Of a stretch of DNA of 64,000 bases, positions 1,050 through 62,375 are shown piece after piece. Under the pieces are notes generated by a model that did not search any database, was not told the DNA's origin, and saw nothing but the letters and a program-made list of their open reading frames with translations. The first letter of the stretch is position 1. Each line of letters begins with the position of its first letter. The stretch is from Utricularia gibba (taxonomy: Eukaryota > Streptophyta > Magnoliopsida > Lamiales > Lentibulariaceae): the NCBI GenBank assembly GCA_002189035.1, contig CM007990.1:124001-188000 (forward strand), written 5' to 3'. The position numbers were made by a program, and so were the translations under genes.

Positions 1050-2474
1050 TCAAACTCTAAAGAAGTGCTCGACATCTGTCTGGACAAGTGAGAAGACGGT
1101 CCTCCAACCAGCCTCCGTGGGATGGCTCGAATCCCAGAAGAAAGCCCTGCTCCGATCCGGGCACAACGTGTAATACACTGTTCCATTTGCAGCAGCGGTG
1201 GCGCACGAATGCCCATTTCCCGTTCCTTCACAGCATGGCGTCAACGGAGTCTGGAAGCTCACATCCCCTGCAAGCGCAATCAAAAGTTAATTTCCATTTG
1301 ATAATTGAGTGGTGAAATTTAATCGTTACCTTGATAATCCTTCTTGTTGATGATCACGGTCTCAAAAGCCTTGTACAAGTCAAGGAAAAGGAAGGTGGAA
1401 GTACGGTTGTCAAGCTCCTCTACAGCTTGTTGTAGCAAGGCATTGTGATACCCGACTGCCAAATTCTGAATCTCAATGCAGCTTTTGTATCCTGTCACTG
1501 CCGTCATACGGGGGAGACAGCCCAGAGGCTGTAATCCGACTACAACGATTTTCCGAGCTCCGAGGCGGTGGATTCTCTTCAAATTTGACACGAGCTGGTT
1601 CACCACCCCGGGATGAAGTTCCTAATATCCGCAAGAGATCCGCCAGTGGACATATAAGCCGCGTAGTCGTTCCCGGCGCAGGTTACTAGAACAGCCGAAG
1701 TGTCGAGGACATCCCCGGTGTAGAAACTGTTGGTGAGTAGGAGCTGGAAGAAGTCGATCTGAGCAGTCATATTGGGCAATGTTGGGTATGTGTCGAAAAC
1801 GCCGCTGCCACCGAAGGCGAAGTTCATTCCGTTGGTATACTTGTGAGGCACATAGTTTCTCCATATGTAGCCCAGTGGACTCCTTAGTCCCAAGAACTTT
1901 GCTGCAAAATCCAAAAGAAACTCGTACTTAGTACCACCTTAATGCAATAATCAGTTTAATAATTGAAAATATTATCATTATTTAATAATCAGTTCTGTAA
2001 GTAGTTCCGTTCGTTAGGATCCTATCAAACAGGGGAGCGTGGCGGTTGCGAGATATCTGACTGAATTTATTTATTTTTAAAAAATATAGTAAATAAATAA
2101 TGCACCTAAATCTTGGGGTAAAACAACAAAAAGGAGAGATTACCCAAATAATCGGTGAGAATGAGTCCATCGCTGAAGCGGCCGGCCGGCTTCCCTGGGC
2201 GACTGATTCCGTACGGCTCTCGCCACGAGTCGCCAAGCGACTTTCTTACATTTCCGGTGTCCGCGTACGAGTCCCCGAACACGAACAGCTTCCCTGGTTT
2301 GAAGCCCGACGCGGGCGATAAGCCATGAGCCCCCACCATTCCTGGTGAGTGTATGCGATTTAAAAGTCAGTAAAAGTGGAATGAAATGTTCGATCAACAG
2401 CATGAGGAGCACTACTCACCAGCTATGAAGAGAAGGACCAAACTTGACGCAGGCATCGTTACCGGAACAGCCAT
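1050..2474 (-). CDS. GDSL esterase/lipase, one-base frameshift in exon 3
   Basis: Secreted SGNH/GDSL serine esterase of the plant subgroup resembling Arabidopsis At5g03610; the natural substrate is unknown. Exons on the minus strand are 2474-2420 (ATG plus a hydrophobic signal peptide), 2341-2144, 1901-1330 and 1267-1050, all with GT/AG borders in matching phase. Block I reads FGDSYADTGN (Ser nucleophile, GDSY variant), block III AGNDY, and block V DSSHPTEAG carries the catalytic Asp and His. In exon 3 the frame ends at FIPGW-stop around 1603, while VNQLVSNLKRIH continues in the next frame. A run of four G at about 1607-1610 would need a fifth to read FIPGVVNQL. With that base the protein is about 347 aa, normal for the family. 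Either a recent null allele or an assembly error. Confidence 0.87.
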
Positions 2475-2817
2475 GGAGATGACGCACAAGGGAAGGGGGT
2501 CTGTCTCTCTAGTGGTATCTTGAATTTATAATGGGAGCAACGGAGACAGGGGCTCAGCAATTTCATGAATATTAAAAAAAAAGAAAATGGAAAACTCCCG
2601 AGAGATCTGAAGTTTCGGTAACCCCTAGTTACCCATTCTGTGTCGTGATACTGTCAAAGCCTACAATTGGAAGGAGTGAGAATTGGTAACAAAATCGCAA
2701 TCGAATGACTGTTAGTTCACGGTGTACGACGTCGTACTTGATGAAACATCTCTTAGAAAGTTTTAAATTTTGCATTTATTTTATTATAATTAGCTGGCGG
2801 TGATTTAATATTTAAAC
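2475..2817. other. intergenic spacer between divergent promoters
   Basis: This AT-rich spacer upstream of the GDSL start (minus strand) and of the TATA box at 2818 (plus strand) presumably carries promoter sequence for both sides. I see no reading frame of note in it. Confidence 0.4.
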
Positions 2818-2825
2818 TATAAATA
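2818..2825 (+). promoter_or_regulatory. TATA box candidate
   Basis: TATAAATA, 83 bases upstream of an ATG at 2908. The spacing suits a plant promoter with a short 5' UTR. It is supported only by sequence and spacing. Confidence 0.4.
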
Positions 2826-2849
2826 CCCGGTCCGCCCAGAGGGAGGTCT

Positions 2850-4170
2850 CATTTTGTATTTCAATTTTCATACCGGCATCGGGGTTTCCGTCTTCGAATA
2901 AGGCGGCATGACTTCTTATGGTTTATCGCTCCCGGTGCTTGAATCGGAGTCGAGTGTTAGCGGTTCCAGAATGATGTGGAATGGTGAGGTCTGGGGCTCA
3001 AGTGTGTTTTTACGTTGTTTTTTCGTTCAATAGATTACGATCTCTCAGATCTGAATTTGCATAGTTACTATATTCGTGTATTTTACTGGATGGAATCGGG
3101 ATATCAGGACCTAGTATTTTGATCTTGTTTTCGAAATTCCGTCCGAGGTCTTTCACAATGTTTTGAAATGTTCGATCGATTATGATATGTCAGATTCCAA
3201 GTTTAACGAGGTGTTTAGCCGATTGTTGTAGGTTTAATGTTGTTGTTCCGCCTGTTTTTCCGGATTACGTATTTCCTAATCATGATTTTTGTTTTCGAAT
3301 GTGTTGCACAGCATTTGAATGTCTTTTTTACCATTTTCAGGTCCTTGAATTTGAATCTCTGGTGTTGTATGAGAAAGATAGTATTGATTCGTAGAATCCA
3401 ATGTCAGAGAATTCAGCTGCCTATGATGTGCCAGATTTGAAGTTTTATGCGCTCTTATAGCTTATTAGCCAAGGTATAATCCTTGTGGTTCAGTCTCAAA
3501 AAAGTCCTATGGCTTTTCACGGTCCTATTTAGTCTGAATAAGTCGATTGTTTTAGAGTGTTGAAAATATTCTAATCATCATTCTCGTTTTCTGAATGTGT
3601 CGTGCAGCAGTTGGTTGAAGTTCATTTGTGTTGAGATCCTTGAATTGGAGCGACTGGCACTGTATTAGATAGTTTGATGCCTATTTTCCAATACTAAGCC
3701 AGGCAATGCATCTCAGTCCGATGCGTCAGTGGTAAGACCCACAAGCATACACCTGCAAACTATGTCTGCCTTAAAACGGATATCTTTCATATTTAACCTA
3801 TATTGGTTTTAAAAGGTGTGATTAGTAGAGAGCAATTTCATCTGAATATGTTAGCTGAAAATGGCCTTCCATAAGTCCAAAGAAGAGAGTACACTGTTAT
3901 GAATGCCTATTGATGAGATACTCTTTGTCAAACCTGGCTTGATTAAGTGTAGTTTAGGTGAAACAATGCGAGTCATATTGGGTTTTTCTAACTTACATTA
4001 CGCTTTGCCTCATTTCTTGCAATGGACCAAACTTCTTTTTCTCCCCATTTTTATTTCAGTTGTGCTGGAGACGATTAGATCTCCTTGCCTGGTGGGGTGG
4101 AGTGATCTGAAGATGCTGGATATTACTAGATCATTCAAGGTTCATCCTTTTACTATAAAATCATAATCAT
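2850..4170 (+). other. possible transcription unit, unidentified
   Basis: Downstream of the TATA box an ATG at 2908 opens a 41-codon frame (MTSYGLSLPVLESES..., stop at 3033) containing possible donor sites. Further on there is an exon-like block near 4059-4137, after a pyrimidine tract and TTTCAG, reading VLETIRSPCLVGW. The first peptide and the block do not join into a recognisable protein. It may be a non-coding RNA gene, or a coding gene whose remaining exons I could not find. The middle holds a diverged internal duplication, described separately. Confidence 0.25.
3270..3700. repeat. diverged direct duplication, about 295-bp offset
   Basis: The stretch around 3274-3375 (CCTAATCATGATTTTTG..., GAATGTGTTGCACAGCA, CCTTGAATTTGAATC) reappears around 3570-3670 with substitutions (CTAATCATCATTCTCG, GAATGTGTCGTGCAGCA, CCTTGAATTGGAGC). 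A neighbouring block (ATGATATGTCAGATTCCAAG near 3184, ATGATGTGCCAGATTTGAAG near 3422) is also duplicated, with a shorter 240-bp offset. This indicates an old local duplication followed by indels. Confidence 0.6.
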
Positions 4171-4444
4171 GTTGCTGTCTTTCCATTAATTGTTCCGTTT
4201 GATGCACTAGTTCTGCTAGTAATATGTGAGATGAACTTTTAAGTTTCTTTTCTGCTTTTCGCACAATGGGGTGCAGCGGGGATAAGAACTAGTTTTTGTG
4301 CATTCTAGTTTCAAATCAACACAGTGATGTGCCGTAAATTCGGACCCTTTTGGTCTGAGTATAATTTTCCGCCCATAATATTTTCTTAATTGGGCCAATA
4401 TTTTCCTCTTAATATTTTCGTTCGAATTGGATGATGGTCCAGAC

Positions 4445-4562
4445 AGCGTAATATCTTATGTGCCTATTACGCTTAATGTGCCTATTACGCTGTGACACAT
4501 AAGATATTATACCTTATTTTCTTAATGTGACAACTTCCTAAGCGTAATGTGCCTATTACGCT
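4445..4562. repeat. array of short perfect hairpins
   Basis: AGCGTAAT and its reverse complement ATTACGCT flank short loops repeatedly. The last copy, at 4541-4562, is an uninterrupted hairpin: 8-base arms around the loop GTGCCT. A larger version spans 4445-4473, and a further GTGCCTATTACGCT copy lies at 4478-4491. A second inverted pair, TAATATCTTATGTG (4449-4462) and CACATAAGATATTA (from about 4496), overlaps them. The pattern is compatible with a nested miniature inverted-repeat relic. I see no clear target-site duplication. Confidence 0.7.
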
Positions 4563-5780
4563 GAGTATATCAGGACCAATTTGTCGAGTGGCTATTATCA
4601 TTCACGAGCACAACCTGTACGATGGAGAATAGAATCCTTGTCGTGATAATAAAATATAAGGCAAACATAAAATCCAAGCTTCATAAGCCGATGCTTCTTC
4701 TCAACATTAACTTGTCAAAAATATTCGGTAATATCGAAAGTATTATCCCTATTCAGGTACTTTTTCAGATTAGAGCATGCTAAGGCAGCAACACCAATAA
4801 TATTTGCCAATGTCTGGTCAATACTCCATGCAATCAAACAATCCAACAATACTTCATGCATGAAACTCTCACATAATTGATGCACGACGATAATACTAAT
4901 GGATTCAAGTAGTCTGCCTCAATTCCAAGGGAAAGGAATGATAAAAGTTGAGTACCTTCAGAGAGAGATTTTTGATTGAGAGATTATCCACAGAATTAGT
5001 AGTCAAGCCATAAACATAAAACAAACAAACAAATTTTCTTACGAATCCGGAAAATATTCGTGGATTATACGCTTTCACCCTTCAGTTTGGATGTGAGTGT
5101 AGGTTTCACAATATTCTTAGATCCTATACAACAGACGAGCTTAATTTTCATTCTTTAAACTCCGGCTAATTAAACGAGGGCTCCTATTTTTCTATCTCAA
5201 ATCCGCCTGAAATTTCTTGTGCAGTGAAACTCTATAGACTAATACCTTTGTTGATCATAAATCATTTCAAAACAAAATTCATATCCACTAACATAAAAGG
5301 ACAGTATGCATCTGAGAAAAAGAAATCTCAAGAAAGTGAAATTACCAACTTACCAAAAAATTGTCCACAAACAAGAATACGAGACTTCTCTGGATAGGTC
5401 TTGAAAACCGTTCCTGGAAAAGAAAGGAAAAACATGTTCACACCTGATTGCACATGTCGCATCTACGAAGAATAAATCACAAGGAAAATAGCAACATTAC
5501 AAATTAAATTTGTACATCATCATCCGCAAACCAGATCCAGAGATAACAACATGAATAAAACTCGGAATTGCATCTGATAAGGAAAAAAGCGAAATTACTA
5601 ACTAAATTTCTACAGTGTCATTCCATAGAGCATTCTATGAACTATTCCATAAAACATTATAAATCCTTTAAAATCAGATTCACATTCTATGAAAAAAGCG
5701 AATCTACAGACCGATTAACCAGGATCCACCGAGTATAGAAGCGAACGAAATGAGACTGAAGAAAGACGCACAACTCCGAA
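4563..5780. other. AT-rich intergenic DNA with one exon-like block
   Basis: Mostly AT-rich. On the minus strand, positions 5413-5354 form a neat 60-base candidate exon: a pyrimidine-rich tract ending CCAG, then a block open in all three frames (one reads TVFKTYPEKSRILVCGQFFG), then a strong GTAAGT donor. No partner exon or known protein was recognised, so it may be a relic or an exon of a non-coding transcript. Confidence 0.3.
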
Positions 5781-6285
5781 ACACACACGGCGATAACAGA
5801 AACGTACGAAAACCTGGAAATCAGGCAGATCTCGCAAATTTGATTCGTTATTGCCCTAGATCTGCTGGATTCGTTCTTTCGGAACAGGGAGCGATGGAGA
5901 AGAGCGGACTTATTGCGAATCGAAGTACTCCAAATCTCATCTCAATCCGCAAATCCGGAAACCACAAACCACACGATAAAAGAAACGTACACAAATCTGG
6001 AAATCACGGAGATCTCGCGAATATGACTCGTTAGAGCGCCAGATCGGCTGGATTCGTTCTTTCCAAACAGGAAGCGATTGAGAAGGAGCGGGCATCTTGC
6101 GAGCGGAAGAATTTCAAATCTCATCTCAACCAACAGATCTCGATTTCACACATACCACGAGAACAGAAACGCACGAAAATCTCGAAATCGCGCAGATCTC
6201 TCGAATTTGCCTCGTTATCGCGCCGGATTCGTTCTTTCCGAAATGAAGCGATGGAGAAGAAGCGGGAGAATTCGAGAGATCTGCG
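5780..6285. repeat. three tandem copies of a ~184-bp unit
   Basis: Anchor motifs recur with constant spacing: AACGTACG at 5801, AACGTAC at 5984 and AACGCACG at 6168 (183 and 184 bp apart). Each is followed by a CAGATCTC/GAGATCTC block, GGATTCGTTCTTTC and GCGAT(G/T)GAGAAG. The copies are clearly diverged but colinear. The plus-strand frame 5750-6034 and the minus-strand frame 5942-6133 both owe their length to the repeat. It ends immediately before a TATA box, so it could be promoter-proximal or a decayed leader-intron repeat. Confidence 0.8.
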
Positions 6286-6288
6286 TGA

Positions 6289-6296
6289 TATAAATA
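6289..6296 (+). promoter_or_regulatory. TATA box candidate
   Basis: TATAAATA directly downstream of the 184-bp repeats. The nearest recognised plus-strand start is the phosphatase ATG at 6870, about 575 bp away, which is far for a single leader exon. The functional link is therefore uncertain. Confidence 0.25.
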
Positions 6297-6869
6297 GCGA
6301 GGAGTGGTGCTCTTTAAATACATTTTTGTCCTCCCAAGAACGAAAGAAATTAAGGGCAATTTCGTCTTATCCGTTTGGGCCCCACACCCACTCGTCTTTC
6401 AGGTGTTGCACCGCATCATCGAGGTGGCCCTTGTTTCCAAACAGCGGCGATAATACATGTATCGCTTCTTGTAATTATTTGCATCATGTAATTATTTTAA
6501 AATAATTTAAATTTAATTCAGTCGTCGTTTGTCTAAATCATGGTTATTCTATCTTTTGCATGAAAATTAGTCCCATGCGGCCATGTGGATTGTGAGGACG
6601 GACAAGGACGCATGGTTGCGTGCCGTTTATTAATTATAACTAAATAGGGATCAAATTCAATGCAATATTACTGATTGGTAAGTTACTTTATTTGAGTTTC
6701 TGTTGACCACTCGGAAATAGAACACATACCCAAATCATGGTGCGGGATCGGCAAAATTTGTACACTGCCCAATTTTCAATTACCATGTTTTCCGGACCCC
6801 CTTCTTCATTGCCCCTTCCAAGTGCTCCATTTAACGGAGCCACCGCCAACCAAAACCTCAGAATCCCCA

Positions 6870-8408: not shown

Positions 8409-8643
8409 TCAAATTCAAAAATATCAAGGAAATAGAATATTTCCCGCTCCATTGGCCTCATAGTAATAGGCATTAGCATCATCTAGCGTAACTGATGATG
8501 CCATTTCTTTAGGTATCACCTTCACATGTTGCGCCCGGGCGGAAAAGAAAACCACAAACTATATGCGAATCTTCAATAGTGCAAATTAATGAGCAATTAG
8601 GGAATGAGAAGAAGGGTTTGAACTTGGCATCCACTTGCATGTC

Positions 8644-8651
8644 TATAAATA
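8644..8651 (+). promoter_or_regulatory. TATA box of the second phosphatase
   Basis: TATAAATA lies 39 bp upstream of the ATG at 8683. Another in-frame ATG at 8653 sits only two bases past the box, upstream of any plausible transcription start, so 8683 is the better initiator. Confidence 0.6.
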
Positions 8652-8682
8652 AATGCATCTTCTCCAGTACAAACCAATCATC

Positions 8683-10302: not shown

Positions 10303-10435
10303 AAGTTTAAGGTTAGGAGGTAGTAGGGAATGATGATGCATAACCATGGAGATAAACAGCGAGAATAGTAGCAAGGAAAGAGAGATCATGTTTAGTGGTC
10401 TTTATCCTCGCTGCCCATGACATTTCACTTGAGAT

Positions 10436-17701: not shown

Positions 17702-18785
<1,084 letters not shown>

Positions 18786-19830: not shown

Positions 19831-20670
19831 ATGAGTGCGAATGACTGCCCTGTAGGCTTCAGGTTCTACCCAAACGAAGAAGAGCTTCTCTCCTTTTATC
19901 TCCATCGCAAGATATATGGAAACTGTCCACCCTCCATTGACAGCATCATCCCACTTCTCCACATCTACGACTATGATCCCCCAGACCTCCCAAGTAATGA
20001 ATGGAATTCGAGCGTTCAACCTCGTAGTGAATGACACCTTTGTTAGTCGTAGTAACATGAAATTTATCGTGTTGATTAGGATTTGCAGGGAACCATTCTC
20101 CATTAGGAGGGGAGCAGTGGTTCTTTTTCGTTCCGATGCGAGGGAAAGAAGCGCGTAATGGAAGGACTAACAGGCTAACCCCACAGGGGTACTGGAAAGC
20201 AACCGGGACACAGAGTGACGTTAACTCCCCAGCACCAAATCATCGGCCGGAAAAGAACGATGGTTTTCTACGCTGGACGAGCTCCTACCGGCCGGAAGAC
20301 TCCGTGGAAGATGAATGAGTACAAGGCTGTGGAGACCCCTTCCTCCTTGCCAACCTCGCAGGTGCGGTGAAGCACCTCTTTCATGTTTTAGTTGCGGGTT
20401 TCATGTAGAGGTACTAAAACTTGCTTGCAGGTCAGGGAGGAACTCAGTCTGTGCAGAATCTACAACAGGCCATCATCGGGAAGAGCATTCCAGAGACGAA
20501 CGCTACGAGGTTTGGAGGCAGCTGAGTATCAGCAAAGGGTTGAACCAGCGGTGGAGAAACCATCCAATGGAGAGCCCAAGGATGCTGAAGCAGAAGCTGA
20601 AAATATGGCTGCCAATGGCTTCGCTTCGTGGGATTTGGAGTCCATATGGATGAACTTAGGCTACACATAG
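19831..20670 (+). pseudogene. NAC transcription factor, frameshift in the NAC domain
   Basis: NAC domain DNA-binding protein resembling the ANAC090/ANAC061 clade. Exons are 19831-19993, 20089-20361 and 20431-20670. Subdomain A reads [37 protein letters not shown] and [50 protein letters not shown]. The frame of exon 2 reads into a stop at 20316-20318, while subdomain D lies in another frame. Dropping one C from the CCCC run near 20228-20231 restores [16 protein letters not shown] and gives 224 aa overall. Literal translation would give a protein truncated inside the NAC domain. Splice sites and the C-terminal exon are intact, so a sequencing error is as likely as a real null. Confidence 0.82.
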
Positions 20671-21951: not shown

Positions 21952-23060
21952 CTAGATGTGAATCTCAAAGATGGAAGAAATTGAAGTGTGTACCATGTGA
22001 TCTGAGTAGTATTGACGATATGGGTTGGTGTGGCCGGAGTTTGGAGAATCCAGCAGCGTCGGATTTTGGGGTTCACCGTCCTGAAACTCCAAGTTCACGC
22101 CGAATAATCTCAGTGTCTTGAAACTGTTATTCCCTCCTGTATTTGCTTGATTCCGTGGCACTGTAGAAGCAGATCCTGTATTTTATTTATATTCTCAATG
22201 AAGGATATGATATGTCACTACAGTGAAGTGCAATGAATGAATCTTTCGGGAAAAAGGAAACCCACACGCATGCACATTCGCAGAGCTCAGTGATTGCTTT
22301 TCTTCAAGGAAACACCAACACAATTTTGGTTGCAGAGAAAATGCAGGAAATGGGTACTTGTTAATCCAATAAAATGAGCAAGAGATTTGGAGAATCACTT
22401 TACTTTTGATTGTTGATTACCTGAAGAAGGGCCTGAATTTTTGGATTGGCCGGAGGTCCCCCTGCCATCGCCACTCGTGGCGGCGTTGTGACTCCTGCGC
22501 CGCCATCCGATGAATAAGCGGCCGGTGGAGGCGCGGTGCCGAGAAAAGGTAACTACATCGCCGGCGTCGAGACGTTTCTCCTTCACGAAACGGCTCCACC
22601 CCTTGGTTAGAACGTAGCTCTGGCTACTGTTCCAGTACGAGTAGCGAAACCTCCAGGTTTTCCCCAGCTCATCCATGAAGTTCAAGAGAACCCCATTCTC
22701 GCAGGAGTCCCCTCCGCAGTTCATCGGAAAATTCCTCTCCGCGTGCTGTTTCGGGATCACCAGACGGTTGAGCTTCCCAACGTCGCTCGGCGTCAATGGC
22801 TTCTCGAACAACATCTCCCTGTGCTCCTGCCCCGGCGCCCCCCCGCCGTCGAGCTCTTCATCCTCATCATTGTTGAGGTTGAGGTTGAAGGCGAAAGGGG
22901 CACGGCGGTGGCTGCCGTGGTTGGAACGCAGAAGACTCCTCTAAAGCCGCTGCGGTCGTGATTGGGTGGCGCAGACTCCGTGCTCAACTTGGACCACCAC
23001 CCCCGCTGCGGCTGCGGCGGCGGCGTCCGGAAGCTCCGAGTAGTAGTGATTGACAGACAT
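21952..23060 (-). CDS. B3-domain repressor, NGATHA-like (NGAL) type
   Basis: Nuclear B3 transcription factor of the NGAL/SOD7 group (Arabidopsis At2g36080, At3g11580, At5g06250), repressors controlling organ and seed size. Exons are 23060-22421 and 22160-21952. The B3 domain starts [20 protein letters not shown] and ends [10 protein letters not shown]; exon 2 carries the RLFGV repression motif ([12 protein letters not shown]). The conserved family start [12 protein letters not shown] is at 23060, but codon 40 is an in-frame TAG (22943-22941). After it the same frame resumes with [13 protein letters not shown] and MLFEKPL. Translation could restart at ATG 22814 and give a 200-aa protein with an intact B3 domain. 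One surplus G in the GGGGG run and one missing C in the CCCC run would bypass the stop, so assembly error is plausible. Confidence 0.85.
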
Positions 23061-31921: not shown

Positions 31922-33577
31922 ATGACTCTTGGTTCGGGAGGATCCAGTGTTGTAGGTCTGCGCTTTTTACGCTGTTCTTAAACCCTCGTTTAATTTTTTT
32001 TAATCGAACAACGAATGGGTTTTCCAATTTTCGGGGTCGATTATATGTTTGTATGGCGAATTCCGGATTTTTCAGGCAGGATCTTTACGGAGGCATGCTA
32101 TTGTGCCAGAAATTAATCACTGTCTTGGTTTGTTTTGGTTGAAGATTAGCTGAATGCATTTTATCAGCAGAACTGCAAAAGAGATCTTAGTCTTCTTGTG
32201 ATCCAGTTTTCTAGTCCGCAGTTATGTCGTTTGTGGTGCCAATTGGCCTTCGTGTCATGTTTGGCCATTGTTCTTATACCCTCGATTATTTTTTTTTAAT
32301 CGAACAACGAATGGGTTTTCCAGTTTTCGGGGTCGATTGTATGTTTACATAGCGAATTCCAGATTTTTCAAGCGGGATCTTTACAGAGGGATGCTATTGT
32401 GCCAGAAATTAATCACTGTCTTGGTTTTTTTTGGTTGAAGATTAGCTGAATGTATTTTATCAGTAGAACTGGCAAAGAAATCTTATTCTTCTTGTGATCC
32501 AGTTTTCTAGTCTGCAGTTATGTCGTATGTGGTGCCAATTGGCCTACTTGTCATATTTGGCCATTGTTCTGGTAGTAATGTAGCTACTTGGTTCCTGTAA
32601 ATCCAACCACCATATGACTAAGCTGTCCTTTGTGCATCTATGATATCGAGGCCTCAATTGGGTCGAATTAGTGTACTTATATCAAGCTTGCTGCTTTTCC
32701 GTAGTCCCTAGAAATTTCAGGTTGCTGGAGGAACTTGAACGTGGAGAGAAAGGAATTGGGGATGGGACTGTAAGCTATGGAATGGATGATGGTGATGATA
32801 TATACATGCGGTCCTGGACAGGAACCATCATAGGTCCTCATAATGTAAACAGCTCTCTGTTTCTTGCACCGTATCATTATGATAAATAATAGTTTATCTG
32901 TAACTTGGAACTTCTATTTATCATTTCTTTCTACATGGCTCAAAAACCTTTACTTCTCAATGTTCTGTTTCTCCAAATCTTGTTATTTGGAAAACATGTT
33001 TATGGGAACTTCCTACATCCTGTGTTGAAAACGCAGAAGCTGATGACTTGGTTTCTTTGCAGTCTGTTCATGAAGGGCGGATATATCAGCTGAAGCTTTT
33101 TTGCGATAAAGATTATCCAGAGAAGCCTCCCAGCGTCCGCTTCCATTCTCGGATTAATATGAGCTGCGTGAACCATGAAACTGGTGTGGTACGTAAGTAG
33201 CAATCTTGAATCATCTTATTTTGATTCGACGAAGATCCTTGTGATTGATGATGCAGGTGGAACCGAGGAAATTCGGACTCCTTGGAAGTTGGCAACGTGA
33301 GTATACGATGGAAGACATACTGACACAGCTAAAGAAGGAGATGGCTGCTCCCACAACCGTAAGCTCGTTCAGCCCCCCGAGGGAACTTATTTCTAGTCAA
33401 TGGCAATGCAATGAACCTCGTTATCGGTACTTCCCCCCCTGTTGTATGATGCTGTTTTCAAGTTTGCCGACTAGCACTTCATCATGTCTACTACGCACTG
33501 TCATTCGGCTATACACTTCTGTGTTTGGTTGCCCTTATGATACATTGGGGCTTGCTCGTTTCACATTTTCAAACTGA
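31922..33577 (+). CDS. UEV1: ubiquitin E2 variant UEV1 (MMS2-like), frameshift near C-terminus
   Basis: Catalytically inactive E2 partner of UBC13 for Lys63-linked ubiquitin chains in DNA damage tolerance and signalling. Exons are 31922-31955, 32705-32844, 33063-33188 and 33257 onward. [61 protein letters not shown] and [14 protein letters not shown] match plant UEV1C/1D closely. After KKEMAA the usual tail [14 protein letters not shown] and its stop (33394-33396) are present but one frame off. One more C in the CCC run near 33350-33352 (or a lost T) restores it and gives 146 aa, the family length. Read literally, the protein gains a frame-shifted tail running to 33577. Intron 1 contains a 296-bp tandem duplication. 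Confidence 0.92.
31974..32566. repeat. tandem duplication in UEV1 intron 1, two ~296-bp copies
   Basis: Copies span about 31974-32269 and 32270-32566. The same landmarks occur in both: TAATCGAACAACGAATGGG (32001 and 32298), GTGCCAGAAATTAATCAC, GATCCAGTTTTCTAGT and GTGGTGCCAATTGGCC. The copies differ by few substitutions, so this duplication is fairly recent. It lies wholly within the intron. Confidence 0.92.
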
Positions 33578-38562: not shown

Positions 38563-40641
38563 ATGTTTTCCAGGACAGCTGCTCTTGAGGCGGCTTCCCT
38601 TTGCAAGGCGGCGGAGATGGTTAATCTTTCATCCCTTTTTGTAGTCCCTCGAAATGCTGGTGCTCTTTCCACAGAGACTGTCCTGCCCGGGAACACAGTT
38701 GAAATTGATGTAAGAAGGGATGAGAAGCGGCGACGAATATCGCGTCCTTCGTTTTTCGACAAGCGGCTGGTAGGCTATGCCAGGGCCAAGATGTACTCTG
38801 AGTTATTTCGTGTCTTCGATAGAATGGTGGAAGCTAATTACTCTCCTAATCTCGCCGAGTTGACTATTTTATTAAATTGCTTTTGTCGCTTGAAAAGGTT
38901 AGATCTAGCTTTTGCCGTTCTCGGTTGTATCTTGAAAAGGGGTTTCGATCCGGATTGTTATACTTTTGAACCCTTCATTAGAGGGTTGTTGCGGGAAGCT
39001 AAAATTGGTGATGCTGTTTTGTTCTTTAACAAAATCATACCCATTGGAATTTCTCCAAATGCACGTATGTGGTCGGCTTTGATTGAAGGACTATGCAAGG
39101 AGGGAAACATGGAAGCTGCTCTCGGTATTCATGAGGCAAATTTGAATGGAAACTTTGGATCTGGGCTCAGTTACAGTCCTAACTTGTTTTATTATAGTGC
39201 TCTCATTGATGGTGTTTGTAAGCAGGGTTTGATGAAAAAGGCCATAGAGTTGTTTCATGAGATGGAGGGCAGTGGGATTTTGCCAGATGCAGTTGCATAC
39301 AATGTGTTGATCCATGGTTTCTGTCAGTTGGGTGATTGGGAGCAAGCAAAAGCTTTTTTCAATCGGGCATTGGATCGAGGCTTTCATCCTACTACTATAT
39401 CGTTAAATATTCTGATGGATCTCCTGTGCAGAGATGGGAAAGCAGATGAAGCAAGGGGCATGCTGGACCTGATGCGTGAAACCGGTTTGCATCCCGCTGC
39501 TAATACTTTTAACACTCTGTTGAACGGATACTTTAAAAAGGGAAGAGCGGAAGAGGCACTAAAATTGTTTGAAGAAATGAAGAGTAATAATGTGGCGCCT
39601 GATGCTATTACGTATGGCATATTGATAGATGGCTTTTGCAAAAATGGATGTCTCAAAGATGCGTTAGACTTGTTCGAGAGTCTTGAAAAATCTAGTTTTG
39701 TATTTAAGATTGAACACTGTAACTGCCTCATTGATGGGTTATTCAAAGCAAGAAAAATGAAGTTAGCCTGTGAGTTGTTTGAGAGGATCCCCCTCATGGA
39801 CCTTATTCCTAATTCTGTTACATATACCATCATGGTGGATGGTCTGTGCAAGGCTCAACAGTTGGATCGTGCTTATGAAATGTTTGTTGAGATGGAAAAG
39901 AGAGGATGCCTTCCTACTGTAGTCACCTTGAGTGTTTTGATGGCTTTCCTCTGCAAGAATAGTAGATCAAATGAAGCAAGGGGATTGTTGGACTTGATGA
40001 GGAAAAGGGGTTTAAATCCCTGTTCTTCTACTTTTAATACCCTGCTAGGTGGATACTTCAAAGAGGGCAGAATAGAAGAGGCACGAAAACTTTTTCAGGA
40101 AATGAAGAGCCATGATCTCACGCCTACTGATATCACATACACCGTACTAATTGATGGTTTTTGTGAGAATGGATGCATTGAAGATGCATTAGACTTGTTC
40201 AAAACTCTTGAATCTAGTCATAAGTTGAATATCAAGCATGTTAGTTGCCTCCTTGACGGGTTAACCAAAGCAAGAAAACTTGAGCTAGCACTTCAGGTTC
40301 TTCAGAAGGTTCGGCAAGGGAGTCTTACCTCAGATGTCATTTGCTATACAATAATGATAGATGTCCTGTGCAAGGTGGGGCGAGTGGATGATGCTTATGA
40401 TATGCTTGTTGAGATGGAAAAGAGCGGCCTTGTTCCTAATGTGCGCACTTTCAACAGGCTGTTGGTGGGGTTTAGCCGCAATGAAGATGCGCCCAGGGTT
40501 GTTGAGCTTCTTCAGAAAATGGCAGAAAGGCATCTAAGGCCTGATGAATACACAGTCAGTTCAGTTGTAAAGCTACTCACCAAAGTTCCATCCTGCGATA
40601 AGTTTTTGAAGTTGATTCCTCATTTTCCTTCAGGCGAATGA
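38563..40641 (+). CDS. P-class pentatricopeptide repeat protein, copy 1
   Basis: Intronless, 692 aa. The N-terminal ~35 residues are basic and hydroxylated, fitting a mitochondrial presequence. About fifteen 35-residue PPR motifs then run almost without gap from about residue 85 to the end, for example YNVLIHGFCQLGDWEQA, FNTLLNGYFKKGRAEEA, YGILIDGFCKNGCLKDA and YTIMIDVLCKVGRVDDA. There is no E or DYW extension, so this is a P-class RNA-binding protein acting on organellar transcripts. The arrangement resembles the Rf-like lineage that includes restorers of fertility, but assignment needs phylogeny. A related gene and a relic lie 18 kb away on the other strand. Confidence 0.93.
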   Translation: MFSRTAALEAASLCKAAEMVNLSSLFVVPRNAGALSTETVLPGNTVEIDVRRDEKRRRISRPSFFDKRLVGYARAKMYSELFRVFDRMVEANYSPNLAELTILLNCFCRLKRLDLAFAVLGCILKRGFDPDCYTFEPFIRGLLREAKIGDAVLFFNKIIPIGISPNARMWSALIEGLCKEGNMEAALGIHEANLNGNFGSGLSYSPNLFYYSALIDGVCKQGLMKKAIELFHEMEGSGILPDAVAYNVLIHGFCQLGDWEQAKAFFNRALDRGFHPTTISLNILMDLLCRDGKADEARGMLDLMRETGLHPAANTFNTLLNGYFKKGRAEEALKLFEEMKSNNVAPDAITYGILIDGFCKNGCLKDALDLFESLEKSSFVFKIEHCNCLIDGLFKARKMKLACELFERIPLMDLIPNSVTYTIMVDGLCKAQQLDRAYEMFVEMEKRGCLPTVVTLSVLMAFLCKNSRSNEARGLLDLMRKRGLNPCSSTFNTLLGGYFKEGRIEEARKLFQEMKSHDLTPTDITYTVLIDGFCENGCIEDALDLFKTLESSHKLNIKHVSCLLDGLTKARKLELALQVLQKVRQGSLTSDVICYTIMIDVLCKVGRVDDAYDMLVEMEKSGLVPNVRTFNRLLVGFSRNEDAPRVVELLQKMAERHLRPDEYTVSSVVKLLTKVPSCDKFLKLIPHFPSGE

Positions 40642-47402: not shown

Positions 47403-49650
47403 TTATTCCATCCCCATCGCGAAATCAGTGATGCTTTTCCGGGCGACGAACTCGGGCAGCAGCTGGGCGGAGAAGTTTTTCTGCCGCTGTAAGCTTAGGT
47501 TTTCGTACAGGCTCGTTGAATGCGGCGGGGCCGGGGAATTCATTAAACTGAATTCGCTGGTGCCTCCCATCTGGATGCGTTGATTCGGAATAAAACTCTG
47601 GTGGGCACCCTGGATGGAGATGTTCTCGCAGTGGGAATGTGGGAGGCCGAGTGTGAGCGAAACGCCGTTACCTGAATAAGCCGCCGGGGGGTACTGCTCC
47701 GTCGTGAAACGCCCCAGATCTCCGATTGAATAGGATCCGAACCCGCCGATGAAGTTGGTTGGGGCTCCGAGCAATGTGAACGCTGCTTCTCTGGCGATGC
47801 TGTTGTTATCTTCGTTTGTGGGCTCCGAGGCTAAGTTCATCGCCGGAATTGATCCCGGGGAGTGAAGAACGTCGCCGGCGGTTCTCAACTTCTTCGGACT
47901 CGCTTGCGCAATGCTTTCGAGGCCAGAGGAGGGTATTAGCTTAAACGCAGTGAAACTGTTCATCGGAGAAGTTACGGCGGTGGAAATCGAGGGATTCCGG
48001 AGAATTGGGCTTTCTTGCAAACTGGGTTTATTGCTCTGCTTCTCAGTCACCGGAGTCTTGGGTTGCGCCGCCGCTGATTTGGAGGTTGATTCATCGTTGT
48101 GTTCGTTTTTATCGTCGGACAAGTTACGCCCCTGCTCCCTCATTTCTTCCGTATACATCTCCTCCACCATCGGCTTCCACAGACGAACTCGAGCGTTGAT
48201 GAACCAATTCGACACCTGATTCCACATTATATTTCTCAAATTCACTCACACAAAACCCCAAACCCCTCAATGAATCTGATCAATCAATGGTCAATACCTG
48301 GCTCCTTGTGAGACCCGTTTGCTTAGCAAGCATCAGCTTATCAGAATCCTTGGGATACCTGGAGAAAAAATATATATATACTTGAGTTGAGAAGGAAAAC
48401 TGGAGGGCCGAATCCAATGACGTTTCTACTTACGGATGAAGAAAATGTTCGAAGAGCCAGGCACGGAGAACGGAGACGGATCGCTCCGGCAAGCCTCTCT
48501 GAGGTCTCCAAGCATTGTGCTGGATCATGCCGAGTTGCTGTAAAGCACGTTGCTGACGAATTTGATTGTCGACGTATTTGAGCCTTGAGCCCTCTGTTTT
48601 CCCATCAACGTTGTCCTCTTCGCCTAAGGTTCTGCTAGCAGTGCGAATTTGGTGAAGTATTGCGTCCTTTAGGCATCGGAATTGCTTTGAAATTGTCTGT
48701 AACGCTAGAGCTGTGTAGCTCTTGGCGGAGCCAATGCCGGCGTTTTGCTCGAACCATGAGATGACGCTCTGCATTTGGTGATGGTAATGTCGGTATCTCT
48801 GGTCGACCTGATGAACAAAAAGGTAAATTAATTTGAGAGATGGAGGGGGAAGAAGACGTCACTCGGTATCGTACCTCATCAAGCATATTGACAAGTTTGG
48901 CTTTCTTCATTTGAATTTCTTGTCGTTCTGCGGTGGTCAGATCGGAGTCACGTTTACTGCTGCCTTCCCCGCCACTTGGGCCATCGCCAGTGGTTGCAGC
49001 CACGGTAGCACCGGAGGAGGAATCTCCGAGGTTCTTGGCGTGAACATCATTACTGAATGGGGTCTTCGAGGACTCGGAGACGTTTTTGGTGCCTTTTCCG
49101 ACGTTGACAACTTCGTCGAGAAGCTCCTGGGCTGCCTTGAGATACTTGGAACTGAACAGTACGCTCTGAACCCCGGTGACGCCGTTAGAAACGGCGGAGG
49201 CGGAAGATGGGGACCCACCGGAGACTCTCAATTCGTCACCACCACCGCCGTAGCCATGCGGCTGCTGGGAAGATAAGCTCAACGATAAACCTTGCTGAGC
49301 GCGCGTGACGTCACGCGTCGCCGCGAGGTCGGCTTGTAGGTTGTAAAGATTATACGGGAAGAACCCGTAAGGCGCCGATATATCCTTCTCCTGATGCGAC
49401 ACCGGCCCATGGAGTGGGACTCCTGCGAAAGTCTGTGTCTGCGACGGCGGTGCGTTGGCGAGGCTACGGCCGTCCCCGCCGCCGAGTTCAAGAACACAAA
49501 GTTGTTGCCAGGCTGTTGCTGCTGCGTCGGTGTCGACGCCGGGTGTTGATTATCTGAATAACCGGCATAAGCGGGGTTCATCAGAATCAGCGTCTGCAAC
49601 CCATCTCCGCCGCTTTGAATCTCCGAGTTCCCATGAAAATACCCCGCCAT
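47403..49650 (-). CDS. BEL1-like homeodomain protein (BLH1-like), frameshift in exon 1
   Basis: TALE homeodomain transcription factor that pairs with KNOX proteins. Exons are 49650-48875, 48807-48434, 48358-48298 and 48215-47403. The N-terminus [12 protein letters not shown] and LQTLILMNP matches BLH1-type proteins; a ZIBEL motif (GLSLSLSSQ), the SKY box ([15 protein letters not shown]), the BELL domain ([19 protein letters not shown]), the homeodomain ([31 protein letters not shown]) and a C-terminal ZIBEL (VSLTLGLPH) follow in order. Near 49475, NNFVFLNSA is in one frame and [19 protein letters not shown] in the next. A fifth G in the GGGG run restores continuity, for about 674 aa. An internal ATG at 49402 could give an N-terminally shortened protein that keeps all domains. 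Confidence 0.92.
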
Positions 49651-55551: not shown

Positions 55552-55773
55552 ACAATCTGACGTGTCGTTTATGATTTCGGAGATTTGAAATAATCCGAGT
55601 AATTTCCGCAACGTAGCGGGGAAATTCAGATGTGGCCGCGCGGCTGCTTTCTTAAAGACCCTCTGTGCACCGCCTTACTGTGTATATGATGCAATCGTAA
55701 CCCTCCTCGTTCATCCCCTACCCAGCATTTCCGAATTCGTAGCGCCGGCCTCCGCAGCTACCTTGCTCGATCA

Positions 55774-56616
55774 ATGTCTGCGGCCGGCGGCATGTTTCTA
55801 GGCGGCGGTTTTGATTTCCCGGTGTTTTTCTTCGAGGGAGAACAGGAGATGTACGTCGGAGATGTGAGTATAAGTCCGTCAGTTGAGTACAAGTCTTTCC
55901 AGTTTACGATCAGCCGCAAGATCGGGGTTTCGCCTAACCAAATCTCGATATATCTCGTTGACCGGAGGAAAAATCCTAAACCTCCGTTCTCGGAGGCGCG
56001 GAGGAAGTTACCGATCACAGGAAAAGTCGACTTCGGTTCGATTTGTCGACACGTAGGGTGTTTCTTTCTCGTCGTGCTGAAAAGAACTCGAAAGTTTAGA
56101 AACCGGAGGGAGAAGACTGCGAGCGCCTTCGAGTTTGATGATATTTCCTCGGAATACAACTTCCCGCAGATCCTCATTCTGGATGAGGATGACCAGGCGA
56201 CCGCGGCCGCGGCGCAGTCGATGCAGAACGCTTCGCGCGATCGAATGCAGACACTGGTGGTTGAGAGGGAGAATCAACGAATGGGGAGGCGCGAGTTGGG
56301 TTTGAACCATCCTGAGCATACTCTCCACGACAGACTCAGCCACCACTCTGTTCCATGTCCAGGTCTGATCAGCAACCATCCGATTCAAGCTCAACCGATG
56401 CAGAACCAGTTTTCAAGAATCGTCAAAATGCCCAGGGTTTTCTGCGCAGAATGCGCAGATTCATCCGGGGAGACGACGCCGTTCCATCCTTGCGCAAACG
56501 ACTCAATACTCCTAGGGCACCACAAGTCAATGTTCGGGCCAATAACACAGCCTACTCCCCAGGTTTCTTCAGATGCCGTTCTCTACCCCTCTCTCTTCTC
56601 TCCTGCAGCCGAATGA
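55774..56616 (+). CDS. plant protein of unknown function, DUF7138 type
   Basis: Intronless, 280 aa. The N-terminal half (FPVFFFEGEQEMYVGDVSISPSVEYKSFQ, then KIGVSPNQISIYLVDRRK, LPITGKVDFGSI and CFFLVVLKRTRK) is the conserved domain I recall as DUF7138 in plant proteins, with a ubiquitin-like alternation of strands and a helix. No enzymatic motif is visible. The C-terminal half is low-complexity, rich in Gln, His and Pro, and contains FCAECADSSGETTPFHPCAND with spaced cysteines. The role is unknown. The start at 55774 is the first ATG and fits the family. Confidence 0.75.
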   Translation: MSAAGGMFLGGGFDFPVFFFEGEQEMYVGDVSISPSVEYKSFQFTISRKIGVSPNQISIYLVDRRKNPKPPFSEARRKLPITGKVDFGSICRHVGCFFLVVLKRTRKFRNRREKTASAFEFDDISSEYNFPQILILDEDDQATAAAAQSMQNASRDRMQTLVVERENQRMGRRELGLNHPEHTLHDRLSHHSVPCPGLISNHPIQAQPMQNQFSRIVKMPRVFCAECADSSGETTPFHPCANDSILLGHHKSMFGPITQPTPQVSSDAVLYPSLFSPAAE

Positions 56617-56919
56617 ACCTTCTCAGCCGCCCCCATCTTTCTGCCTTGGTTTATTCGTCCTCTTCATTGATAAATAAAACGGCTAATGCTGGGATTAGAG
56701 CTCATACATATAGTTCCGGAGATGTTTAAAAATTGAAGAACTTTCTGTGGTTGTGATCTGGGAACGGATTTCTCATCCTTGCTGATTTGTACATTCTGAA
56801 ACCTGATATTAGCTTTGGGGCTCTTAGTTACCCCTTAAGGATCTAACATCTTCTTTGTGTTTGCAAATACTACAGTCGTGTTGATTCTGGTTCAGGAGCA
56901 TGCACCATTGGAGCTTAGG
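56617..56919. other. intergenic spacer
   Basis: 3' flank of the DUF7138-type gene and of the PPR relic; no feature seen. Confidence 0.4.
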
Positions 56920-58200
56920 CTGGTAAAACAACGATCTTAGTGGCCCTAACCAGTGGACAGAGGAAAATCGTGGGGTGGAACTTTGGCGGGTAGCTGAAGG
57001 ACCAAATGGATGGTACATTCATCAGGCCTGAGATTTCTCCGGCCATTTTCTGCAGAAGCTCAGCTACCTTGGGAGCATCATCCCAGTCGTGGGTGTGTCG
57101 AAGATGACTACACCAGGAAAGCAACCACTCCTCCATCCCAGCAAACAGATCATAAGCACAGTCCAGTCGCCTAGCCTTGCCAAGACCATCAACCATGATA
57201 CCATATGTAACGGCAGACGGAACTAGGCCCAAGCGGGGATCCTCTCAAGCAACTCATAAGCGGGGAATTAACATGGTTGATATTCAGAGTTCTGAACAAG
57301 TCCAATGCATCCATCAATTATGAATAGTGGGATGCAAACCCTTTTCAGGAATTGGGTCCAACAAACCCCTTGCATCATCTGTTTTCCCGTTTCTGCACTT
57401 GAGATCCATCAGAATATTGAGCGACAAGGTGGTGGGTTGAAGGCCTCGATCCAGCGCCTGATGGAAAAAAAGCTTTCGCTTGCTCCCAATTACCCATCAC
57501 GCAGAAACCATGGATCAACGCATTGTATGCCGTCATGTCTGGTGAAATCCATCTGCGGACCTTCTCATGAGACAATCCTCATCAAACCCTTCTTACAAAC
57601 ACCGTGAATGAGACCAATGTAATACGACAAATTAGGGGTATAACTGAGCTCAGAAACCAAGCTTCCATTCGGATTTGCCTCAGCATCTCTCGCATATTTC
57701 AAACCACGCACGTCCCTCTAGTCAAAATCCCCCAGGGAAGTGTATTTGCAGACGTTCCCGTATGAATGCCTCTGTGAAGCAACAAAACCGCATCTCCATA
57801 CTTACCTTACAGAAACAGCTCCATAGCAAAGAGGATGATAACCCCTGTTCAAAATAGAAATTGAGCAAAATGTTCATCTCGATGAGATTAGGGGAATAAC
57901 CAGCATCCACCATTCCATCGAAGATAGAAAATAGCTCCGGGTACTTCTTAGCATATCTTACAAGCCGCATCCCATCTACTTGGCCGCGTTCCTCTGGATC
58001 CTTGTCCTTTTTGACACGAACCTCAAGTGGGTTCTTGGACAGGATCCTCGCAGTGGAAGGAGTATCGCTCCCATTTCGAGGAATTATAAAAAAGGGATGA
58101 AAGTCTAACCCTCTCCACCCTGAAGAGCAATTGTTCTGGAAAACATGCTGAAAGACTTCCCGGCAAGAACGCAGATTCTGCAACATTCAACGGGTTCTCA
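56920..58200 (-). pseudogene. truncated, frameshifted PPR relic
   Basis: Minus-strand remnant of the PPR gene next to it. The N-terminus is clear (FIIPRNGSDTPSTARIL, RYAKKYPELFSIFDGMVDAG, SPNLIEMNILLNFY), then the frame breaks. Later pieces match in scattered frames: NALIHGFCVMGNWEQAKAFF near 57500, and TYGIMVDGLGKARRLDCAYDLFAGMEE near 57150. The whole is about 1.3 kb against 2.1 kb for the intact gene, with several stops and internal deletions. Unlike the single-base breaks elsewhere in the window, this is a true decayed copy. Confidence 0.88.
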
Positions 58201-58465
58201 AGCAGAACCATTCCTACGATCATTTCACTTCGCGATGCAGCGAGCAATCAAATCTTTCCATCTCTTCAGATCGGCTCCGACGCATTGAAATTGCTAATGT
58301 GGGCCTAACAATAAACTGGGGCCCAAATTACTACAAGCCGACTCACTCACATAGGCCCAATTAACGCAAATGAGCAAATGTATCCTCAATGGAGAAACCC
58401 CAGTTAAATTCGCTGCGGTTTTCCACACAGATGCTACAACAAGAAGATGATGATGCCTGCCGGTG

Positions 58466-60586
58466 CTAACAAGCGGCGGCCGAAGGAAAACGAGGAATCA
58501 ACTTCAGAACTTCCTCGCAGCACGGAACTTTGGAAAGTAGGTTGACAACCAAACCAATCGTGCACTTATCAGGCCTGAGATTTCTTTCAGCCATCTTCTG
58601 CAGAAGCTCGGCGACCTTGGGAACATCTTCGTTGGAAGTAAATCCCCGGAGAAGTACATTGAATGTATCTACATTCGGGAAGCAATCACTCTTCTCCATC
58701 TCAACAAACAAAGCATAAGCGCGCTTCAGCCGCCGGCCTTTGCATAGGCTTTGAAACATCATATGGTATGTGCCGGCAGACGGAGCAAGGCCAATACTGG
58801 GTATCCTGTCAAACAACTCGTAGGCTAGCTTGGCTTTTCTTGCTTTGAACAAGCCGCCGAGGAGGTAATTGACGTGCGTGATATTCAACTCGAAACCAGT
58901 TTTTTCAAGAGTTTGGAACATGTCTAATGCATCTTCAATGCACCCGTTCTTGCAAAAACCATCCATCAATATGCCGTATGTAGCAGCAGTAGGCATGACA
59001 TCCAGGCTCTTCATTTCCTCGAAAAGCCGGCGTGCCTCTTCAATTCTGCCATCGTCAGTGTATCCTTTTAACAACGTGGTGTAGATAACAGTATTGGGCT
59101 TTAAACCCCTTGTTGTCATCAAGTCCAACAAACGTCTTGCTTCATCATTTCTACCATTCTCGCAGAGGAAAGCCATCAGAACGGACAGGGTGAATTGATT
59201 AAAGAAGCAACCTACCTTTTCCATCTCAACAAGCAAATCATAAGCACGATCCAACTCCCCGGCCTTGCAAAGGCCACGGAGCATGATGTTATACATCATG
59301 GCATCTGGGATCAGACCCATTTTACGAACCTTCTCGAAAAACTCACAAGCTAATTCATCTTTTCTTGCCTTGAATAACCCATCAAGAAGGCAACTATAAT
59401 GCTCGATATCTAACTCAAAATGTGATCTTTCAAGAGTCTTGAACAAGTGGAGTGCATCTTCGTGGCATCCATTCTTGCATAAGCCATCTATCATTATGGC
59501 ATAAGTAACAGCATCAGCCGGCACACTATTGCCCTTCATTTCTCGAAACAGTTTAAGTGCCTCTTCCGCTCTTCCATTTTTAAAGTATCCGTTCAACAGA
59601 GTGTTAAAAGTATGAGGAGAGGGATGGAAACCGGTTTCACGCATTAGGTCCAGCATGCCCCTTGCTTCATCAGTTTTCCCGTACCTGCACATGCTATTCA
59701 TCAGAATATTAAACGATACGGTACAAGGTTGAATGCCTCGATCCAATGCCCGATTGAAAACAGCTTTTGCTTGCTCCCAGTCACCCTTACGACAGAAACC
59801 ATGGATCAGCACATTGTATGCCCTTATATTTGGTGAAATCCCTCTGGTCTCCATCTCATGAAACAATTCCTCGGCCTTATTCATCAAACCCTGCTTACAA
59901 ACACCATGAATAAGAGCACTATAATAAACCAAAGTAGGACTACAACTGGGAGCCAAGCTTCCATTCAAAAATTTATCATGAATACTGAGAGCATCTCTCA
60001 CTTTTCCAGCCATACACAACCCTCTAGTCAAAATCCCGCAGGTAAGTGTATTTGCAGACATCATTCCCATATGAATGCTTTTGTTAAGCAACAAAACCGC
60101 ATCTTCATACTTACCTTCCAGAAACAGCCCCTTAGCAAGAGGGTGAAAAGTACAACAATCAGGATGATAACCCCTGCTCAAAATCCCACCCAGAACGGCA
60201 AAAGCAAGATCAGAGCTTTTCAAATCACAATAGCAATTGAGCAAAATGTTCATCTCAGTGAGATTAGGGGAATGACCAGCATCTACCATTCCATCGAAGA
60301 TAGAAAATAACTCCGGGTACTTCTTTTCCTTAGCATATCTTACAAGCCGCTTGTCGAAAAATGTAAAAGTAGATGGTTGCCTACGACGCACCCCATCTAC
60401 TCGGCCGCGTTTTTTCCGATTCTTAACCTTTTTGACTCGAACCCCCAGTGGGTTCTCGGACAGGACACTCGCAGTGGAAGGAGTATCGCTCCCATTTCCA
60501 GGAATTATAAAAAGGGATGAAAGTTTAACCCTCTCCCCAGCCTTGGCCACGGATGCTTCCCGGAGAGCAATTGTTCTGAAAAACAT
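58466..60586 (-). CDS. P-class pentatricopeptide repeat protein, copy 2
   Basis: Intronless, 706 aa. The N-terminus (MFFRTIALREASVAKAG) is a probable mitochondrial presequence and aligns with that of copy 1 at 38563 (MFSRTAALEAASLCKAA). A basic linker (VKKVKNRKKRGRVDGVRRRQ) precedes about fifteen P-type motifs, such as YNVLIHGFCRKGDWEQAKAVF, FNTLLNGYFKNGRAEEALKLF and YGILMDGFCKNGCIEDALDMF. No E/DYW domain is present. The two intact copies are in opposite orientation and 18 kb apart, with the relic between them next to this copy. The function is inferred as organellar RNA binding; an Rf-like role is possible but unproven. Confidence 0.93.
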   Translation of the reverse strand: MFFRTIALREASVAKAGERVKLSSLFIIPGNGSDTPSTASVLSENPLGVRVKKVKNRKKRGRVDGVRRRQPSTFTFFDKRLVRYAKEKKYPELFSIFDGMVDAGHSPNLTEMNILLNCYCDLKSSDLAFAVLGGILSRGYHPDCCTFHPLAKGLFLEGKYEDAVLLLNKSIHMGMMSANTLTCGILTRGLCMAGKVRDALSIHDKFLNGSLAPSCSPTLVYYSALIHGVCKQGLMNKAEELFHEMETRGISPNIRAYNVLIHGFCRKGDWEQAKAVFNRALDRGIQPCTVSFNILMNSMCRYGKTDEARGMLDLMRETGFHPSPHTFNTLLNGYFKNGRAEEALKLFREMKGNSVPADAVTYAIMIDGLCKNGCHEDALHLFKTLERSHFELDIEHYSCLLDGLFKARKDELACEFFEKVRKMGLIPDAMMYNIMLRGLCKAGELDRAYDLLVEMEKVGCFFNQFTLSVLMAFLCENGRNDEARRLLDLMTTRGLKPNTVIYTTLLKGYTDDGRIEEARRLFEEMKSLDVMPTAATYGILMDGFCKNGCIEDALDMFQTLEKTGFELNITHVNYLLGGLFKARKAKLAYELFDRIPSIGLAPSAGTYHMMFQSLCKGRRLKRAYALFVEMEKSDCFPNVDTFNVLLRGFTSNEDVPKVAELLQKMAERNLRPDKCTIGLVVNLLSKVPCCEEVLKLIPRFPSAAAC

Positions 60587-61460
60587 GCTGAAAAACTTCC
60601 GGAAAAAAGTGCAATTCCATAATACTCAAAGCCGCTCCAGCCAAAAGCATCCGTACGATCCTTTCGCTTCGCTCGCGAGGGGCGAGCCACCTCTAAGTCT
60701 ACTCTTCTCCGCCCCGCCTCATTCAAGAAAGAGGGGGGAAGGGGGGGCGGGTGTCGTAATATGGGCCTGAAGTCCCACCCACAATTAAACGTGGGCCTGA
60801 TTCACTGCAACCATTTTTAATAGAAATTGGGCCTGAAACACTGTCAGCAACTAAAGTGGGCCACGTGTGATTATAAATATTAGCAAAATTTGAGGATAAA
60901 ATCAATATAAACAATTTTTAAAAATAAACGAAAAGCAGCCGACGGTCCCCGATAACGTTTAGTGTGCTACAATAATTGGAGCAACCCAATGCTAAACGCC
61001 GTCGTTCCACATCTCTTTGAATTATTAAAGTCATTTTCGTATAATCGTTTCTGAATAAATTTAAAAATAGAAAAGCAATTACTCGGTGACGATTGATTTA
61101 AGCACTGGGTGGGTGGTGGGCCACACAGCTGCATGTGCCGACATTCAATTCCTCTTTCTCCCCCCGATCCTTACTCTTCAGTTTGCCAAATAATTTATGA
61201 TAAAATTGTGAAATATTTTCTGGTATATTTCTTGGTTTAAAAAATAATATGCTGAATTTTTTTAAATTTTCAAAAAATTTTAAATACATTTTAAAATTAA
61301 GTCATTGTTGTTGTAATAGTGACTTCCCCTCCCAAGGGGTGTGGTTACAGATGTTAATCTTACCATTTAATGCGTTAATCTACACCGTATAAGCCTCCCG
61401 AGTAGAGTGCTGCTCTAGGGACATTTTCGTAAATTCCTTCTAGTGAGGAGAGAAGGTTTG
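60587..61460. other. intergenic, AT-rich
   Basis: PPR promoter on the left, then AT-rich DNA; no element recognised. Confidence 0.4.
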
Positions 61461-61660
61461 GTTGTATAACATTCACAGTGTACTGATCCGAGAGCACGAG
61501 TACAGTTGCCTTGGCATACGACTATACGTGAAGGGTGTCGGTGTCGGAGTCGGAGTCGGACACGGGAAAGGTGCGCACCACAAAAGGCGGTCTATAATAG
61601 TGGGCGCGGTGCAAAACAGAAACAACGCACTCGCCATCCATTTCCGGTCTTGCCACCGCC

Positions 61661-62375
61661 ATGGGGAGAACGAGAAGGTGTGCAACCACCATAAAGCCTT
61701 CCGGCGTAAGATTCTCCGGCGAGTCTTCTCGGCCCTTTTGATTCTACTCTTTCTCGTACTCCTCGCCATCCTCATCATCTGGGCGGTTCTCCGACCCACC
61801 AAGCCCACCTTCGTCCTCGAGGACGCCACCATCTTCGTCCTCAACGTCACCGCCCCCAACATCATCTCCGTCACGCTCCAGGTCACCGTCGTCTCCCACA
61901 ACCCCAACGATAGAATCGGAGTCTACTACGACAAAATCTCTGTCTTCGCCGCCTACCGCAGCCAGCAAATCACCATCTACACCGTGATTCCTCCCGTCTA
62001 TCAAACGCAAAACGGTTAGAGGACTGACTTCCCTTACTCCGGTGAACTCCAATTCTATTTTGATTCACAAACCCACTGGTTTTCTCAACAGGTTACAACG
62101 TTTGGTCTCCCTTCTTATACGCGAATAACGTGCCGATCGCGCCCTTCAACGGGCTGCAGCTCACTTCGGATCAAAACGCCGGCAGGGTGCCGATGGTGAT
62201 CAATCTGAACACGCGCGTACGGTGGCGCGTGGGGCTCTTCATCTCCGGGAGATATCACTTCCACGTGACGTGCCCCACCACCATCCCAATCGGCAACCCC
62301 GGCGGCTATGGAGTCCTCGTGCAAGGGAACGCCATCAAGTACCATCTCTCACAGAGCTGCAAAGTGGATGTCTGA
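61661..62375 (+). CDS. NDR1/HIN1-like (NHL, LEA_2) membrane protein, frameshift at the start
   Basis: Exons 61661-62014 and 62092-62375. A basic cytosolic segment (KVCNHHKAFRRKILRRVF) leads into one transmembrane helix (ALLILLFLVLLAILIIWAVL) and a LEA_2/WHy domain (SHNPNDRIGVYYDKISVFAAYRSQQIT, ISGRYHFHVTCPTTIPIGNP). NHL proteins sit at the plasma membrane, and some respond to pathogens. The Kozak-like ATG (CCACCGCCATGG) at 61661 is out of frame with ENEKVCNHH: the run after it has four G where five are needed. With that base the protein is 212 aa, the family size. As read, the only in-frame start is far upstream at 61462, adding a non-family N-terminus with a Gly-Val repeat (GVGVGVGVGHG). Confidence 0.88.

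Follow-up and report, generated by a model that had tools for sequence, protein, structure and literature searches.

Single-base frame breaks in five conserved genes of a Utricularia gibba contig are very probably residual homopolymer errors of the assembly consensus

Five conserved genes in a 64,000-nucleotide stretch of the Utricularia gibba genome (the window; C2:124001-188000 of an assembly of 100,091,633 bases in 516 contigs) each read one base out of frame. Does the living plant carry these lesions, or only its published sequence? Comparison of the sequences leads us, with high confidence, to regard all five breaks as residual homopolymer indels of the assembly consensus and not as lesions of the plant. 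On this reading the five frame breaks are not a biological feature. The rebuilt models are as follows.

1050..2474, minus strand: GDSL lipase/esterase gene, four exons (2474-2420, 2341-2144, 1901-1330 and 1267-1050)
19831..20670, plus strand: NAC-domain gene, three exons; carries one surplus base at, or close to, CCCC 20227-20230
32705..33396, plus strand: UEV1/Mms2-type ubiquitin-conjugating enzyme variant, exons 32705-32844, 33063-33188 and 33257-33396 (first coding exon not found)
47403..49650, minus strand: BEL1-like homeodomain gene (BLH), four exons; one base short within 49549-49279
61661..62375, plus strand: NHL (LEA_2) gene, exons 61661-62014 and 62092-62375

An earlier note on this DNA had described all five genes as one base out of frame with intact splice sites and domains, and the rebuilt models agree: every intron used is bounded by GT-AG, domains flank each of the breaks, and each coding length lies one base from a multiple of three (GDSL, 1043 nt, -1; NAC, 676 nt, +1; BLH, 2024 nt, -1; NHL, 638 nt, -1; and -1 for the modelled part of UEV1, that is, without its first coding exon). 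Four of the breaks are single-base losses and one, that in the NAC gene, is a gain. Each could be assigned to a run of G or C, as the note had also proposed for runs of 3 to 5 bases; the runs at the breaks measure 3 or 4.

A frame-shift scoring script localised the breaks in the NHL, UEV1 and GDSL genes to 3-6 bases, at GGGG, CCC and CCCGGGG, respectively. The GDSL gene is one base short at its CCCGGGG (coding strand, 1612-1606); its two halves match positions 1-105 and 107-206 of the Pfam Lipase_GDSL profile in two frames, and its alignment score against an intact tandem copy (C2:122436-123866) rises from 282 to 553 once one missing base is permitted. The UEV1 gene is one base short at CCC 33350-33352. 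Permitting one missing base raises its score against the copy on C304 from 138 to 206, and an alignment with human UEV1 across the break reaches to within a few residues of the human C-terminus; the C304 copy has the same C-terminus in a single frame. It had been argued that UEV1-type genes are usually retained, but this argument is weak, since the genome holds four UEV1 copies, of which one is truly pseudogenised.

In the NHL gene the break falls directly after the start codon, where GGGG (61663-61666) is one base short; the only ATG is out of frame with the rest of the gene. The homeolog at C304:767438-768067 begins with the matching ATGTCGGAAAATGAT, which identifies the ATG at 61661 as the NHL start and places the break immediately behind it. 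We had considered whether this gene was a false alarm, given that a good 77-nt intron joins both open frames; the homeolog overturned that view. The intron itself (62015-62091, GT-AG, with GGTTA at both ends) is absent from the C304 homeolog and from the paralogs on C451 and C3, and a genome search with it returned a single copy, at its own locus. Judged by these comparisons, it is a candidate for a recent intron gain.

The remaining two breaks were placed by other means. We found no close paralog of the NAC gene in the genome, and the paralog on C1 failed as a reference for localisation; we therefore used a PDB alignment, in which the two frames, once joined, run gap-free at the break against Arabidopsis NAC19. 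The halves of this gene match positions 1-89 and 94-121 of the NAM profile. The BLH gene keeps intact POX and Homeobox_KN domains downstream of its break, which most likely lies at GGGG 49477-49474. Our search of the genome returned no close BLH relative with which to pin the break, and this run is the least certain of the five because it was placed only by the open frames (49549-49279) and by family resemblance.

The earlier note had also treated the placement of the breaks in short G/C runs as telling. Runs of 3 to 5 are not rare, however, and placement by itself proved little: in the coding sequences of the window, a G/C run three or more bases long turns up by chance in 17-24% of 9-12 nt stretches and in 53% of 30 nt stretches. 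Taken alone, the five breaks are thus suggestive. They lie only moderately beyond chance, and it is a genome-wide sample that makes the case.

If the breaks are homopolymer errors, the same lesion should occur everywhere in otherwise intact genes. As a control we searched the whole genome for four conserved, unrelated families with long exons, namely, GRAS, BAHD acyltransferases, HSP70 and KCS. Candidate breaks were defined as two adjacent matches in different frames, too close together for an intron, and 33 such stretches were cut out and read. Six proved to be introns (L067, L073, L076, L080, L089 and L090) and were left out of the count, and a few were true multi-lesion pseudogenes. The count excludes L068, which lies near a contig end and is damaged at several points, L078 and L092, whose lesions are genuine, and L093, with its long intron-like gap. 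One stretch came from a duplicate contig: the HSP70 break on C241 and C304 is an identical duplicate and was counted once. In the slice compared, L083 (on C241, a contig of 31,221 bases) is identical to L084 (on C304), break included, so that C241 is probably a redundant contig.

There remained 25 single-base breaks in otherwise intact genes (13 GRAS, 5 BAHD, 4 HSP70 and 3 KCS). Each of the 25 has lost a base at a G or C; none lies at A or T. The control slices contain 207 G/C and 223 A/T runs of at least 3, against which 25 of 25 at G/C gives a binomial P of about 1e-8. Where a relative in the same genome was intact at the site, the break could be localised by script (16 of the 25). Every one of these 16 read as a loss, although in L069a the loss was tied with a gain, and all 16 intervals held a G/C run three or more bases long, versus 3.4 expected (product of chances, 4e-12). 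Two of the 25 breaks fall at runs of no more than 1-2 bases (the first site of L062, and L071). The sequence context also recurs: five GRAS genes are broken in or close to one conserved Gly-Gly-Pro-Pro motif, those on C375, C142 and C1 in its C run, that on C244 in its G run, and that on C2 a few codons upstream. Window and control together thus comprise 29 losses and 1 gain among 30 breaks, one of the losses being tied with a gain. Match lengths summed by eye give nearly one break per 5 kb for the control, and the five in roughly 20 kb of the window agree with this; genome-wide, then, every 4-5 kb of conserved coding sequence would hold about one break. The control therefore bears out the prediction, and with the same lesion present in four unrelated families across the genome, the suggestion made in the earlier note of residual homopolymer indels in a long-read assembly is supported. 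Since this single-letter error in G/C runs occurs all over the genome, the plant itself most likely carries all five genes undamaged.

Could the lesions nonetheless belong to the plant? The alternative that survives best, although we consider it very improbable, is that the five genes are real pseudogenes, each with a real frameshift, in a duplicated segment that is losing genes after whole-genome duplication. The window and C304:765000-812500 have copies of NHL and UEV1 in common and look like a duplicated (homeologous) segment; the copies on C304 are intact. True pseudogenes do occur in this genome, and the window has one as well as two intact genes of the same kind; all three served as controls.

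38563..40641, plus strand: intronless PPR gene, 692 aa, unbroken
58466..60625, minus strand: another PPR gene without introns, a single open frame of 719 aa from stop to stop
56915..58186, minus strand: fragment of a true PPR pseudogene, interrupted by numerous stops, gaps and changes of frame

The decayed fragment adjoins the second intact PPR gene and looks like an old tandem copy. Elsewhere in the genome, the true pseudogenes include the copy of UEV1 on C409 (interrupted by a stop and by changes of frame, with stretches missing), a GRAS gene at C244:2105 (many lesions) and a BAHD gene at C412:526 (a 16-bp deletion). The broken genes do not resemble these. Each in the window carries one lesion, and the several mixed lesions and relaxed selection of a pseudogene are not seen; in the window and the control alike, nearly all have a single lesion of one base at G or C, with no stops and no indels of other sizes. 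Moreover, the NAC and BLH genes have no retained close duplicate, and selection after the break is as strong as before it. In the GDSL gene, dN/dS is 0.17 behind the break and 0.20 before it, and in the NHL gene it is 0.22 behind the break, from which it follows that the sequence that would be mistranslated is under normal constraint (purifying selection). Finally, about 11 of about 36 otherwise intact GRAS genes are broken, and these are spread over many parts of the genome. The ageing duplicate segment that the earlier note had offered as its alternative fails on the same grounds: breaks are about as frequent in the window as in the rest of the genome, dN/dS is 0.17-0.22, and true pseudogenes carry many mixed lesions.

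It is exceedingly unlikely that the base counts are real as assembled, which would require thousands of one-base losses in short G/C runs to be tolerated, either as hypermutable alleles or through genome-wide restoration of frame. The former possibility, that a long-propagated clone with hypermutable G/C runs has undergone recent slippage and that the frameshifts are true alleles, has a slimmer chance still. Slippage does favour homopolymers, and a hot spot would fit the breaks that recur at the Gly-Gly-Pro-Pro codons of GRAS genes. However, runs as short as 3 are often affected while A/T runs of similar size escape, there are 29 losses to a single gain, and the implied load would be thousands of broken genes. 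Least credible of all is programmed ribosomal frameshifting or RNA editing that would leave the genes functional as assembled; the conservation of sequence behind the breaks and the recurrence of one GRAS motif among several broken paralogs would suit it, but the breaks lie in many unrelated contexts of nuclear genes with the G/C run as their sole common feature, other members of these gene families need no shift to stay in frame, and the conserved shift expected of a programmed frameshift gene is lacking, the homeologs or tandem copies of NHL, UEV1 and GDSL being single-frame at the site.

We return, then, to errors of the consensus. The genome read here is very probably a PacBio continuous-long-read assembly, built with HGAP and polished with Quiver only. 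A review describes HGAP as working from PacBio reads alone and leaving the polishing to Quiver, and it cites U. gibba, at 88x, as one such case (PMC5793159). In such an assembly the consensus step would tend to drop one base from G and C homopolymers, and occasionally to add one, and each error within an exon would shift the frame of an otherwise healthy gene. The true molecules would carry the other base count; this we infer, as we do, from the review, that short-read polishing was absent. The restriction of the breaks to G/C runs, with A/T runs spared, would fit a chemistry-specific bias. A further trace may lie in the contigs themselves, as the lengths of 4 of 23 (C1, C2, C409 and C505, C2 being that of the window) divide exactly by 500 (P 1.4e-7). 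Quiver processes sequence 500 bases at a time, and these lengths hint at chunked consensus calling by the same software.

The error would not be purely deletional, because the NAC gene and perhaps a B3-type gene need a gain. In the latter gene (23060-22395, minus strand), an in-frame stop (22941-22943) separates the B3 domain from an N-terminus that looks conserved, and the stretch between the two seems to read better in another frame. To judge from its reading frames, the gene may contain two compensating breaks, a gain at a G5 run offset by a loss further on, which the earlier note had not reported.

Studies of gene loss, gene families and regulation rely on this assembly as the reference for a plant well known for the small size of its genome. 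With one false frameshift per about 4-5 kb of coding sequence, automatic annotation would, by extrapolation, split or truncate roughly one in every four or five conserved genes. Many "broken" genes are hence not to be trusted, and claims of gene loss or pseudogenisation made from this assembly need reads in their support. Not every published truncation is in doubt. We considered the reported truncation of DCL3 as a possible assembly error and dropped the idea: it is backed by 5' RACE (PMC8333044), and the genome holds only three Dicer-dimer domains, as expected if DCL3 is without one.

How does this compare with what is known of other assemblies? We searched the literature for a statement on a G/C deletion bias in PacBio-only assemblies and found none. 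A more general statement, not concerned with this plant, holds that leftover indels compromise the prediction of genes and proteins. In the tilapia assembly, according to the relevant passages of that report, a round of Illumina polishing that followed Quiver altered 1,101,609 more sites, and 98.68% of these changes were insertions (PMC5414186), which implies that the output of Quiver was lacking single bases. In this respect tilapia resembles U. gibba, in that losses dominate after Quiver. The two differ in that the tilapia assembly was later corrected with short reads, and the passages concerned give no base context, whereas in U. gibba the errors are still in place, concentrated in G/C runs. 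The tal genes of Xanthomonas offer a second parallel. There, the guanine homopolymer is named as a weak point of Quiver (PMC4853030), and frameshifts in G homopolymers, like those described here, were consensus errors that mostly disappeared with better chemistry. The systems differ in the length of the runs concerned, which is nine in the tal genes and mostly 3-6 in U. gibba.
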